The notes beneath the pieces are model-generated. The model made no database searches. It was not told where the DNA came from and worked only from the letters and a program-made list of their open reading frames with translations. This document shows positions 21,716 through 49,126 of a stretch of 63,540 nucleotides of DNA, piece after piece; the stretch's first letter is position 1, and every line of letters begins with the position of its first letter. The stretch is from assembly GCA_001769655.1 (NCBI GenBank), contig MEPC01000037.1, positions 1 to 63,540 on the forward strand, read 5' to 3'. Origin of the DNA: Bacteroidetes bacterium RIFCSPLOWO2_12_FULL_37_12 (lineage in GTDB: Bacteria; Bacteroidota; Bacteroidia; 2-12-FULL-37-12). A program made the position numbers and the translations under genes.

Positions 21716-21903
21716 TAGCCACTGATTACACAGATTTAAATGGGTTTATAATTTTATACTATTGTCCGGCTAAAGCATATACTTGTAGCATATTTAGGAA
21801 AATTAATTTTTAAGCCCTGAAAGGGCGTAATATAATAACATAGGGCAAAGCCCTATGAAGAAACAGCAAACCTTATTAAAACCCTGAAAGGGCGTAATAG
21901 AAA
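21716..21903. repeat. Intergenic palindrome cluster (GCCCTGAAAGGGCG type)
   Basis: This fills the second half of the 352-base gap 21552-21903. It opens with half of a known-type hairpin (gccactgattacacagatt). Then come gccctgaaagggcgtaatat, agggcaaagccct, and a second ccctgaaagggcgtaata that ends a few bases before the EVE gene ATG. The three short palindromes are 11-14 bases each. No reading frame is supported in this gap. Confidence 0.7.
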
Positions 21904-27620: not shown

Positions 27621-28370
27621 TTAAACTACTACCACTTCCGGCATTTCCACATCCGCTAATATCCTTCCGCAATTTTCACAAACAATGATGCTCTTTTTAG
27701 CGCGAATTTCAACCTGGCGTTGAGGTGGAACCTGAGCAAAACATCCCCCGCACGCATTACGCCTTACGGTTACAATAGCAAGCCCGTTTCTGGCATTTTT
27801 CCTGATTTTTTTATAAGCAGTCAGCAACCGTTCTTCTACAATTTTGCTGGCTTTTTCTGCATTTTGCAATAATTTTTTTTCCTCTTCATCAAATTCTGCG
27901 GAAATTACTTCTAATTCCGATTTTTTTACTTTCAAGTTGTTTTCAAGGTCATCTAATTTTGTTTGTGTTTCCTTGATTTCTGATTCTTTAAGCTCAACCT
28001 GAGTGGAATAATCTTTAATTCTACGTTCTGCCGCTTGAATCTCAAGTGTTTGCAATTCAATTTCTTTACCAAGCGCTTCGAATTCACGGTTGTTTTTTAC
28101 GTTATTCTGTTGTTGCTTGTATTTTTTAATTAATTCACCGGCATTTTTAATCACTTGTTTTTTTCCGGTTATTTCTCCCTGAATAAATTTGATTTCTTCC
28201 TCAAATTTTTTCAGACGGGTTTTTAATCCGGTCCCATCATCTTCAATGTCTCTTACTTCCTGCGGTAAGTCGCCTTTTAATTTTGCAATCTGGTCAATTT
28301 TTGAATCTAACTGCTGTAATTTTAACATGGCAGTGAGTTTGTCGGAAACGGAAATGTCGGATTTTTGCAT
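27621..28370 (-). CDS. C4-type zinc-ribbon coiled-coil protein
   Basis: A 249-residue protein whose first ~190 residues are a long helical hairpin/coiled coil (QQLDSKIDQIAKLKGDLPQE ... ELKESEIKETQTKLDDLENN). The C-terminal ribbon has two CxxC pairs, in ACGGCFAQVPPQ and VCENCGRILAD. This is the DUF164/CdsZ family, a nucleic-acid-associated group. In Bacteroidota it commonly follows a nif3 gene; here the pair is kept on the same strand but a repeat element (28457-28854) lies between them. Confidence 0.88.
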   Translation of the reverse strand: MQKSDISVSDKLTAMLKLQQLDSKIDQIAKLKGDLPQEVRDIEDDGTGLKTRLKKFEEEIKFIQGEITGKKQVIKNAGELIKKYKQQQNNVKNNREFEALGKEIELQTLEIQAAERRIKDYSTQVELKESEIKETQTKLDDLENNLKVKKSELEVISAEFDEEEKKLLQNAEKASKIVEERLLTAYKKIRKNARNGLAIVTVRRNACGGCFAQVPPQRQVEIRAKKSIIVCENCGRILADVEMPEVVVV

Positions 28371-28456
28371 TTTTTGATTTGGTTAAATGAAAATGATAAA
28401 GTATTAAAATATTAAAAGGTTTAATTGTTGAGTAATTACTAAATTTTCAAACAATC

Positions 28457-28854
28457 GGCTAATTCTTTTTTTGAAGTGTTGGTGAAATTTGCTTAATTTG
28501 ATTTTATCAGAATAAAAAAACTAAGGTTTAAAAGCGCCCTTCTTGGTTAAAAGTGCCGTAGGCACTACATTATTTTGTAAGGATGAACTTTAGTCCGTCC
28601 TTACAATATATCCGACTTATGGTTAAAAGTGCCGTAGGCACGGTACATTTAAATTTATTAAAAATGTATCGTTCCTACGGAACTAACTACCTGAAGACAG
28701 GCATTTCAACAACGGACTGAAGTCCGTTGTTATAATATAATTCGTTCCTACGGAACTGATTTTATGCATCTGCAGTATAGAACCAGTTGTTATTACGGAT
28801 AAAATAAAGGAGCAAGGATAAATCTTTTCAAGCACCTCAAAAAAAGAATTAGCC
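28457..28854. mobile_element. Putative non-autonomous element with terminal inverted repeats, copy 1
   Basis: Left end 28457-28480 (ggctaattctttttttgaag, tgtt) and right end 28831-28854 (agcacctcaaaaaaagaatt, agcc) are inverted copies at 22 of 24 positions. The interior is an ordered series of palindromes: agtgccgtaggcact (28552), a 32-base palindrome around ctttagtcc (28575-28606), agtgccgtaggcacg (28628), cgttcctacggaact (28670), a perfect 11-bp stem aacaacggact/agtccgttgtt (28708-28731) and cgttcctacggaact (28743). There is no reading frame and no transposase. The right end is 6 bases from the nif3 stop. No convincing target-site duplication was found. It fills most of the 490-base gap 28371-28860. 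Confidence 0.7.
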
Positions 28855-28860
28855 AACCAA

Positions 28861-29958
28861 TCAACAATAATAATTAACCGGGTTACTATCTGAATCAGCC
28901 AAAAACGCCGCTAAATTATGAAACTTTTTTTGTATTAATCTTAAAATTAAATTTTTAGTTCCTACCTCACTTTCCCAATGTCCTACGTCTAGCAATAAAA
29001 GTTTATTTTCTGTCTCAAAAAAAGTGTGATATTTTATATCTGCAGTTATAAAAACGTCTGCCTTCGACTTAATTGCATGTGGTAATAGAAAACTTCCTGC
29101 TCCTCCACATACTGCAATCCGCTTTACGGTTCCCTCTGTTTTTCCCGAATACCGGATGCATTTTACTTCCAATTTTGATTTAACCCTCTCTAAAAATTCG
29201 GGAATTGCTAGTGACTCTGATAAATTTCCAATCATTCCGGCGCCTGCTGATTGAAAAGGATTTGATAAATCAGAAAGGTAATAAGCCACTTCTTCGTAAG
29301 GATGGCTTTTATGGAGAGCATCAAGAATTTTATTCGTATTCACGGAAGGGAAAATAACTTCTACCCTTTTTTCTTTTACAGTAGAAATTTTACCCGATTT
29401 CCCAATGTGAGGGTTTGCATCTGCATTGGGTATAAATGTTCCTGTGCCATCTGTTTGAAAACTGCACTGGCTGTAATTTCCTATATTTCCTGCTCCGGCT
29501 GTCCAAAGCGCCTTCATAACCTGTAGTGAGTTTTTCCCCGGAATAAAAGTGACCAATTTACTTAGTTTATTATTCATAGGGGCTAAAATCTTTAGATTAC
29601 TTAATCCCAACAAAGTAGCTAACTGATGATTAACCCCCTCAAAAACATTATCGAGATTTGTATGAATAGCATAAATGGAAATCCCGTTTCTTATAGCTGA
29701 AATCAACGTACGACCGATAGCATGAGTAGTTGAAATCTTTTTAATAGTTGGAAAAATAGGAGGGTGGTGAGAAATAATCAGGTTACATTTCTTTTTTACT
29801 GCTTCGTTGACCACTGCTTCTGTGCAATCTAAAGAAATCAGGATATTTGACACTTCACCTTGTGAATCACCGGCAATAAGACCGGCATTATCATAAGATT
29901 CCTGGTAATCTAAAGGGGCGATGGATTCAAGGTAAGAGGTAACCTCTTCTATTTTCAT
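28861..29958 (-). CDS. Nif3-like dinuclear metal centre protein
   Basis: A 365-residue NIF3/YbgI/GTP-cyclohydrolase-I-type-2-like protein. The N-terminal half carries DYQESYDNAGLIAGD and the metal ligands IISHHPPIF and AIHTNLDNV. A central insertion (PII-like, ~residues 125-230) contains YLSDLSNPFQSAGAGMIGNL. The C-terminal half has VCGGAGSFLLPHAI, TADIKYHTFFE and LLDVGHWESE. It is long because of the insertion, normal for this subfamily. Substrate unknown. A textbook Bacteroidota promoter lies just upstream (29970-30000). Confidence 0.92.
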   Translation of the reverse strand: MKIEEVTSYLESIAPLDYQESYDNAGLIAGDSQGEVSNILISLDCTEAVVNEAVKKKCNLIISHHPPIFPTIKKISTTHAIGRTLISAIRNGISIYAIHTNLDNVFEGVNHQLATLLGLSNLKILAPMNNKLSKLVTFIPGKNSLQVMKALWTAGAGNIGNYSQCSFQTDGTGTFIPNADANPHIGKSGKISTVKEKRVEVIFPSVNTNKILDALHKSHPYEEVAYYLSDLSNPFQSAGAGMIGNLSESLAIPEFLERVKSKLEVKCIRYSGKTEGTVKRIAVCGGAGSFLLPHAIKSKADVFITADIKYHTFFETENKLLLLDVGHWESEVGTKNLILRLIQKKFHNLAAFLADSDSNPVNYYC

Positions 29959-46952: not shown

Positions 46953-48023
46953 ATGAATTTCTTCCGAATTTGGCTATTATGCTTTTTGACTCTCCCTGTA
47001 TTTGCACAGAAACAAGGGTTGGGCTTCCATTATTATCATGGGAACATCTTTCGTGACAGCCGGCAAATGGTTCATCTGATCAAAGGATTTCCCAATATGT
47101 ATGAATTTCAATGGAAATATAAACGGACAGGCATTAGCTCATGGGAACGTGTTTATAATTTTCCTTTCACCGATATTGCTGTTATAATAACTGACTTTGC
47201 CAACAAAAATGATTTGGGATATGCCATTAGCATAATTCCACAACTACAGATTTTGTTTTATGAAAAATCATTTCTATCACCTTCTTTCACCGCTGGAACT
47301 GGGGTATCGTATCTCACAAAAATATTTCACCCCGTCGAAAACCCTTTAAATGTCACTTTCGGCTCCAGATTTAATATTGTATTGCATGGTTACTTAGGTC
47401 TTCAATTAAGAATAAAGAAGAATTTTTTGATGGATGTTGGTTATGGAATAACTCATTTCAGCAACGGAAACATCAAAGAACCCAATACAGGATTGAATCT
47501 TATTTTATGGAAAGCAGGTCTGAATTATTTATTCTTCGGAAAAACTCTTAAAAATATTTCTGATACAATTGCTATTGTTCCACTTAAAAATTTTTATAGC
47601 ATCAGATTAAATCAATCCTTCAAACAACTCCCTTCAGCCGGAAATAAATTTTTTTATATTGTGAGTGTTTCCGGAAATTATAATTACCCTTTAACAAATT
47701 TGGGATACATCACTACAGGATTTGATTTATTTATGGATTATGCGGTTAAATATCTTATGATTAATGAAACAACAACCTATAAAAGCTCTGTTCAACTATT
47801 TCGTTCAGGTATTACTGCCGGCTATGTTTTTAAGATTAACCGGGTTGAAATCCCAGTTCAATTTGGATATTATATTTATTTACCATTCAAAAATGTGACA
47901 TCCACCTATCAAAGGGCAGGAGTTCAATATGCTGTTACAAAGAATTTTACAGCCGGATTATATTTGAAAACTCATTATGGGCATGCAGATTATCTGGAAT
48001 GGACGGCTGGGTGGGGGTTTTAA
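46953..48023 (+). CDS. PagL-like lipid A 3-O-deacylase / acyloxyacyl hydrolase family outer-membrane protein
   Basis: A 356-residue protein with signal peptide (MNFFRIWLLCFLTLPVFAQ). The centre has SRFNIVLHGYLGLQLRIKKN and YGITHFSNGNIKEPNTGLNL. H-x-S-N-G-N is the PagL active-site pattern, carrying the catalytic His and Ser. Both halves have barrel-like strands; PagL itself is about 150-190 residues, so this is a longer Bacteroidota relative. It may trim the 3-acyl chain of lipid A at the outer membrane. kdsA upstream fits an LPS setting. A repeat element begins 36 bases after its stop. Confidence 0.75.
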   Translation: MNFFRIWLLCFLTLPVFAQKQGLGFHYYHGNIFRDSRQMVHLIKGFPNMYEFQWKYKRTGISSWERVYNFPFTDIAVIITDFANKNDLGYAISIIPQLQILFYEKSFLSPSFTAGTGVSYLTKIFHPVENPLNVTFGSRFNIVLHGYLGLQLRIKKNFLMDVGYGITHFSNGNIKEPNTGLNLILWKAGLNYLFFGKTLKNISDTIAIVPLKNFYSIRLNQSFKQLPSAGNKFFYIVSVSGNYNYPLTNLGYITTGFDLFMDYAVKYLMINETTTYKSSVQLFRSGITAGYVFKINRVEIPVQFGYYIYLPFKNVTSTYQRAGVQYAVTKNFTAGLYLKTHYGHADYLEWTAGWGF

Positions 48024-48058: not shown

Positions 48059-48568
48059 ACCTAATTCTTATTTTGAAGAGCTGGAAAAATTGTCCTAAAA
48101 TGAATTTTTGGTATAAAAAAGATATGTTATAAATCATCCTTTAAACTTCAAAAATGCCTTAAATACGATTTAATTTTGTAAGTATGTACTTTAAAGTCCG
48201 TCCTCAATTCTGTACGTTTTATGGGCAATAGTGCCGGAGGCACGATTTAATTTTGTAAGGATGGACTTTAGTCCGTCCTTCAAAGCTGTACGTTTTATAG
48301 GCAGAAGTGCCGTAGGCACGGCTCATATCAGGTCTTTAAAAAGGTATCTCTCCTCATACGATACTTCATGCTTTTTCAAAAACTCAAGAAATTGCCATAG
48401 TATTGTTTTCTTTATGATTCGTTCCTACGGAACTCATTTGTCTGAATTCAGACGTTGTAATAACGGACTGAAGTCCGTTGTTACAACATGGCTCGTTCCT
48501 ACGGAACGCAAAGGCAAAGATTTATCATTTCTAACATTACTTTTAACACCTCAAAATAAGAATTATCC
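48059..48568. mobile_element. Putative non-autonomous element with terminal inverted repeats, copy 2
   Basis: Left end (acctaattcttattttgaag, agct, from 48059) and right end (aacacctcaaaataagaatt, atcc, ending 48568) are inverted copies with a 15-base identical core taattcttattttga. The interior repeats the module order of copy 1: gtgccggaggcac, a palindrome around ctttagtcc (48256-48282), agtgccgtaggcacgg, cgttcctacggaactc, aataacggactgaagtccgt (to gttac), cgttcctacggaacg. It fills most of the 665-base gap 48024-48688. The 121-codon frame across it (48231-48596) is an artefact of the repeats. Confidence 0.7.
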
Positions 48569-48606
48569 TTTTTTACACCGTTTATGTATAATTTAAAAAT
48601 TTCACG

Positions 48607-48688: not shown

Positions 48689-49126
48689 ATGGAAAAAAAT
48701 CTGAATTTTAAACGCATCCTCCTCGGTGGATTAGCCGGCGGAGTTGCCATGTTCGTAGTTGGAATGATTATTCACGGCGGAATACTTGAAGAAAGTTATA
48801 ATAATTTAATGAGTTCCCATGTATTAAAAACTCACGAAGAAGTAAATATGACAGCCATGTGGTTGCATCATATTTTCCTGCTTGTATCCGGTATCCTATG
48901 CACCGCTCTTTATGCCATCGCAAGAACGCATCTTGGGGCAGGAGCAAAAACAGCAATCATTACCGGGCTTTTAGTGGGTCTCATTGCCTCCGGAACACCG
49001 ATTGCCATGTACGTTTTTTATAATGTAGGCGCTAAAGTTCCTTTCTTTACTATGCTTGATGTTATTCTTGAAATCACCTTAGGCACGTTGGTTGGCGGAT
49101 GGATTTATAAGGAACAAACAGCATAG
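48689..49126 (+). CDS. Small four-helix membrane protein of unknown function
   Basis: A 145-residue protein with four hydrophobic helices (ILLGGLAGGVAMFVVGMIIH; WLHHIFLLVSGILCTALYAI; TAIITGLLVGLIASGTPIAM; TMLDVILEITLGTLVGGWIY) and glycine-rich starts, resembling small DUF-type inner-membrane proteins. No catalytic residues stand out. It is not obviously linked to the protease genes that follow. Confidence 0.65.
   Translation: MEKNLNFKRILLGGLAGGVAMFVVGMIIHGGILEESYNNLMSSHVLKTHEEVNMTAMWLHHIFLLVSGILCTALYAIARTHLGAGAKTAIITGLLVGLIASGTPIAMYVFYNVGAKVPFFTMLDVILEITLGTLVGGWIYKEQTA

Follow-up and report, generated by a model that had tools for sequence, protein, structure and literature searches.

A MITE is usually regarded as what deletion has left of the element that supplied its ends. 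Y1 transposase genes lying between terminal inverted repeats (TIRs) have been described as TIRtrons/TIRYT; their TIRs are unrelated to REPs and many of them share GGGGWSAS (Di Nocera et al. 2013; PMC3733652). Target duplication, ISL3 and DDE go unmentioned in the text of that paper, and the repeats are not linked there to another transposon. Y1 subclass 1.2 is described as being, in general, without typical IS200 terminal secondary structures (Quentin et al. 2018; PMC6006769). Among DDE-type elements, the ISL3 member ISAeme19 has an 8-bp duplication together with short imperfect ends (PMC12554700). In the open-access literature, neither ISAon1 MITEs nor Y1 units within ISL3 ends turned up as the subject of a paper, which does not prove that none exists. 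The element analysed here is most probably a non-autonomous MITE of ISL3 type which carries a gutted Y1/REP-like unit and was likely inserted in trans by an ISAon1 transposase.

The element (398 bp) is located at positions 28457-28854 of the window, that is, the whole stretch of 63,540 nucleotides analysed (contig MEPC01000037.1, positions 1-63,540, forward strand), in the genome of Bacteroidetes bacterium RIFCSPLOWO2_12_FULL_37_12 (GCA_001769655.1; 3.94 Mb, 43 contigs, 97.9% complete), hereafter the host genome. An earlier note, made from the sequence, had described terminal inverted repeats and nested palindromes at this place, and both were recovered. The 24-bp inverted ends, of ISAon1/ISL3 type, occupy 28457-28480 (plus strand) and 28831-28854 (minus strand), with 28457-28478 and 28833-28854 complementary at 95% over 22 nt (21/22 core); three end-like sites were found in the window against 0.03 expected. 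Between them, on the plus strand, hairpin A1 (GTGCCGTAGGCAC, 28553-28565), the central hairpin C of the A module (core TAAGGATGAACTTTAGTCCGTCCTTA, 28571-28610) and hairpin A2 (GTGCCGTAGGCAC, 28629-28641) are followed by hairpin B1 (GTTCCTACGGAAC, 28671-28683), the central hairpin C of the B module (AACAACGGACTGAAGTCCGTTGTT, 28708-28731) and hairpin B2 (GTTCCTACGGAAC, 28744-28756). The repeated motifs are gtgccgtaggcac at 28553 and 28629, gttcctacggaac at 28671 and 28744, and acggactgaagtccgt at 28712. The A and B 13-mers form perfect 5-bp stems with GTA at the apex, and the fold energy of the element reached -74.8 kcal/mol, against -35.0 +/- 4.1 for shuffled sequences (z = -9.8), with none of 100 shuffles equalling it. 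A second copy of the element family is present in the window (48059-48568, plus strand), with a longer Y1 tail (~29 codons) in its spacer; it is flanked by ORFs 46953-48023 and 48689-49126, and a spurious 121-aa ORF (48231-48596) crosses it. Elsewhere in the window, an Acido-Lenti-1 RNA was detected at 21813-21857 with 43.7 bits, above the Rfam gathering score, in this Bacteroidota genome.

The earlier note would have been refuted had the genome contained no further copies with the shared ends; such copies were found. At the DNA level, 115 pieces of the host genome, distributed over some 35 places, matched the element, which is one of about 30 or more dispersed relatives. The end pattern (up to 3 mismatches) was matched 20 times, against a single match with the reversed control, and the 13-mer GWKCCGTAGGMWC 72 times against none. 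Where they align, the better-matching copies and the window copy are 74-89% identical, and the family is therefore old. The layout of the copies is end, A-C-A, spacer, B-C-B, end; many are truncated, many have one end missing, and a clear duplication was seen in only some. In most copies the modules lie at a set distance, 61 or 95-98 bp, from the ends, and at least one end was kept at 22 of the 28 module loci, against 0.1 false ends per locus. Thus, ends and modules moved as a single unit, although the modules may in addition have spread independently, given the 6/28 loci with no recognisable end. One B hairpin was expanded in tandem inside a copy (L036, 1374-1530) with a spacing of ~48 bp. 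Other elements of the host genome with the same or similar ends (L061, L062, L063, L064, L055 and L058) carry another hairpin family (GTCCC..GGGAC with ATATCGGTAGAAA), as does L101 of another genome, G007. Tandem arrangements were also observed at a contig start, where a 21-bp unit (GAACGAACCCATTCCGATTTC) forms an array beside a partial Y1-like gene (L070, 300-640), and in genome G001, where ten ACCCCGAAGGGGT hairpins stand in tandem-like order 54-57 bp apart (C43:92592-93105).

The origin of the ends was examined by scanning the 24-base end pattern against 84,980 species genomes. At least 115 stretches were found and, among the matches listed, all records were Bacteroidota. Other Bacteroidota carry full-length ISAon1-family elements (L155, L125, L131 and L198; 1438-1451 bp) bounded by these same 25-bp ends. 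Three of them (L155, L125 and L198) contain a two-ORF transposase, which is degraded in L131; of the two frames, the larger encodes an ISL3 transposase and the smaller the ISAon1 N-terminal protein. The L155 ORFs (124 and 326 aa) matched PF01610 DDE_Tnp_ISL3 (7.5e-49), NF049916 ISAon1_upstream (1.7e-23, above its cut-off) and NF049917 (1.4e-46, below its cut-off). The element thus has the same 24-25-bp ends, starting with GGCTAATTC, as the ISAon1 family (ISL3, DDE; NF049916/NF049917, PF01610). It differs by its length (398 versus ~1450 bp), by lacking a transposase gene and by its Y1-derived interior, which is unrelated to ISL3.

Target-site duplications, for which the earlier note had suggested a check, were present and of 8 bp. 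At the window copy, the left one (AAACAATC, 28449-28456) is identical to the right one (AACCAATC, 28855-28862) at 7 of 8 positions, in the 8-bp register supported by 45 end pairs. At register 0, flanks matched at 7/8 or better in 12 of these 45 pairs (other registers: 0-1; shuffles: mean 0.65, maximum 5 in 5000); the 45 pairs cover all loci and include a few alternative pairings within one locus, which weakens the signal instead of inflating it. Duplications in the host genome were also seen at L034 (8/8), L053 (7/8) and L055 (7/8). This length matches the one reported for an ISL3 member (PMC12554700). Accordingly, the element combines the features of an ISL3/ISAon1 MITE: ends matching those of an autonomous ISL3 element, an 8-bp duplication, and a short, multi-copy body with no transposase. 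A cognate transposase in the same genome is not strictly defining for a MITE, and bears on present mobility; in the host genome (97.9% complete assembly) PF01610 gave no match and the best protein match to an ISL3 transposase had an E value of 0.04. Relic MITEs can outlive their source element, and the copies in the host genome are probably immobile now, since the ISL3 gene is missing. The plasmid collection contained no match to the element, and the ISL3 protein matches there all fell below 60% identity.

The core has a different origin. The earlier note had held that no protein is encoded: there is indeed no transposase gene, but 28645-28671 (minus strand) is what remains, in degenerate form, of the 3' end of a Y1 (IS200-like) transposase gene (RYIFNKFK, from ..ERYIFEDLI*), joined to the B module via an internal deletion. 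The core therefore consists of two hairpin modules, A-C-A and B-C-B, of the kind that border an IS200-like Y1 transposase gene; the gene itself is reduced to its last ~9 codons in the window copy. In longer sister copies the spacer encodes the Y1 C-terminus on the minus strand, with ~33 codons kept; these copies retain KKQTFREEYLQLLKKFEVSYDERYIYEDLI*, alignable with the intact Y1 of genome G046, and the L034 spacer shows 76% identity to the last 34 aa of that protein. The region of the start codon is also preserved in two copies (L047 and L055). In G046, B-C-B immediately precedes the intact gene and A'-C-A' immediately follows it. The second half of the element had been read as approximating the reverse complement of the first. 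This is not simply so: the A module once lay downstream of the deleted gene and the B module upstream of it, and the halves look like approximate reverse complements because the modules mirror each other on either side of it. The palindromes would be former recognition hairpins of the Y1 enzyme, carried as passengers.

Deletion junctions were shared among copies. The window copy, L031 and L036 have B joined directly to the TACATTTTT tail, and L045 and L051 have another junction in common; deleted forms were therefore copied after deletion. Three Y1_Tnp matches were obtained in the host genome, two of them with complete frames (L068 and L069). These were rejected as the autonomous source, since neither has the modules of the element and both have other flanking palindromes. 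At L069, the full Y1 gene lies between its own P-C-P palindromes (1318-1400 and 1910-2000; GCCCTGAAAGGGC around ACACAGGGC..GCCCTGTGTT), an architecture of the same kind built from unrelated sequence. Both source types suggested by the earlier note, RAYT and DDE, thus turned out to be involved, with ends that match DDE elements (ISL3/ISAon1) and a core derived from a Y1 (IS200-like) unit.

Short palindromes flanking a Y1 gene, with extra copies elsewhere, recall the REP/REPIN/RAYT systems. The stems here are however of 5 bp, with GTA/GAA at the apex, instead of GTAG-footed imperfect palindromes, and they are enclosed by DDE-type ends with target duplication. No GTAG or CGTC foot tag was found on the element 13-mers and, when RAYT genes were sought in the host genome, the two full Y1 genes were not flanked by the repeats of the element. 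Similarly, a Y1 gene between TIRs, as in TIRtrons, is seen in L101, L102, L126 and L186 and has been lost in the window copy; the ends here are nevertheless recognisably ISL3, with GGCTAATTC and not GGGGWSAS. The existence of TIRtrons as TIR-flanked Y1 genes (PMC3733652), together with the G046 Y1 unit and some host-genome modules that lack these ends, could suggest that the Y1 transposase itself moved the element in an IS200/REPIN or TIRtron manner, the outer repeats being its own recognition structure. We consider this unlikely, as the outer ends carry the 8-bp target duplication, are identical to those of ISL3 elements with no Y1 gene, and were found at none of the 30 intact Y1 relative loci. 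IS200/IS605-type Y1 transposition is not known to make an 8-bp target duplication.

The insertion site was then compared with that of relatives, the nearest of which belong only to the same class. The nif3 ORF (28861-29958, minus strand; DUF34_NIF3) has its stop at 28861, 6 bases away from the right end of the element, in agreement with the earlier reading, and the right target-site duplication overlaps the end of this stop codon. The zinc-ribbon gene (Zn_ribbon_9 in Pfam) starts at 28370, also on the minus strand. These genes had been said to be normally close, and so they are in the 27 same-class relatives with a measurable join: the median gap is 20 bp, with extremes of -7 and 235 bp. Here they stand 490 bp apart, with the element in between. 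Sitting in the minus-strand transcript between genes that adjoin in relatives, and folding strongly, the element might be thought to be retained for a host function, as a terminator, an RNA stabiliser or a protein-binding site. Such a role is highly improbable: relatives have only the ~20-bp gap at this site, Rfam gave no match to the element at the gathering threshold, and copies occur at dozens of other places, diverged, often truncated and with deletions. In an AT-rich genome, where weak inverted repeats are common, unrelated palindromes and a REP cluster might also have come together by chance, with end repeats that are accidental. This reading can be dismissed: the end pairs are exact, the distances are fixed, duplications are present and the order recurs in multiple copies; the number of copies with shared ends already contradicts it.

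We thus return to the non-autonomous ISL3-type MITE with a gutted Y1 unit, to which the copy number, ISAon1 end identity, 8-bp statistics, Y1 tail homology, module order as in an intact Y1 locus and common junctions all point. A Y1 unit (upstream B-C-B, downstream A-C-A) would have come to sit between ISAon1-type ends, and its gene would then have been removed by internal deletion, down to the last ~9 codons in the window copy. The deleted forms would have been multiplied by an ISL3 transposase acting in trans, leaving 8-bp duplications; insertion beside nif3 by the ISAon1 (DDE) transposase most likely produced the duplication seen there. The source enzyme would later have been lost from the host genome, as its missing gene suggests. 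We propose the ISL3 step because of the 8-bp duplication and the end identity, and the order of events because of the deletion junctions; to judge from sequence comparison, mobilisation would have been in trans by ISAon1, and movement by either enzyme is likewise presumed.

The nesting of Y1 genes within ISL3-type ends is not confined to this genome. Three such elements were found in G007 (L101, L102 and L186). The first carries a broken Y1 and a duplication (AATAATAA/AATAATCA); L186, from the same genome and hence not a separate lineage, is 832 bp long, with an 8/8 duplication (CTTTTTAT) and an open 210-aa RAYT-like Y1. L102 and L186 are ~92% identical over most of their length and lie at different places; therefore the nested unit itself has moved. 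A Chitinophagaceae MAG has a 765-bp element with a 153-aa Y1 inside ISL3-type ends (L126). Across three Bacteroidota lineages, at least three types of Y1 are nested in ISL3-type ends. These ends are rare in the class: an even sample of 395 genomes had them in three, one of which is doubtful. The third class-survey match, in G114, is a single end-like site with no partner and was set aside as probably due to chance. In other Bacteroidota, MITEs with these ends contained 2.45 short hairpins per kb inside, against 0.68 in flanks and 0.34 in shuffles.

We finally examined the relatives of the lost Y1 gene, homologues of which occur in 191 of 395 class genomes. The Y---Q--HH signature was present in 29/30 homologous loci (30 genomes) and the DH[VI]H motif in most. 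By these motifs and by Bacteroidetes distribution, the lost gene fits subclass 1.2 (PMC6006769). It differs from the description of that subclass by the paired hairpins on both sides of the genes and by a derivative that has multiplied. Within 260 bp either side, oriented by gene strand, a mean of 5.33 short hairpins was counted per Y1 locus versus 0.41 around a control gene, and hairpins stood on both sides at 20/30 Y1 loci versus 2/29 control loci; these loci were the top 30 matches to a single query and so do not sample the subclass at random. Apices were GAA/GTA mainly upstream and TTC/TAC mainly downstream, hence mirrored. The paired hairpins are a candidate addition to the description of subclass 1.2, and such mirrored pairs across the class are candidate DNA targets for enzymes described as having none.

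In the present element, ends and core derive from two mechanistically unrelated transposons, one DDE and double-strand, the other Y1 and single-strand. It is a tentative and rather doubtful extension that DDE-type ends and single-strand Y1/REP units repeatedly form two-handled elements in Bacteroidota, with ISL3 ends serving long-range insertion and Y1 hairpins local copying or rearrangement. If true, some 'TIRtrons' of the literature would be Y1 genes riding on borrowed DDE ends. From the ISL3/Y1 nesting, an origin of TIR-flanked Y1 genes can be stated in concrete terms and put to the test.
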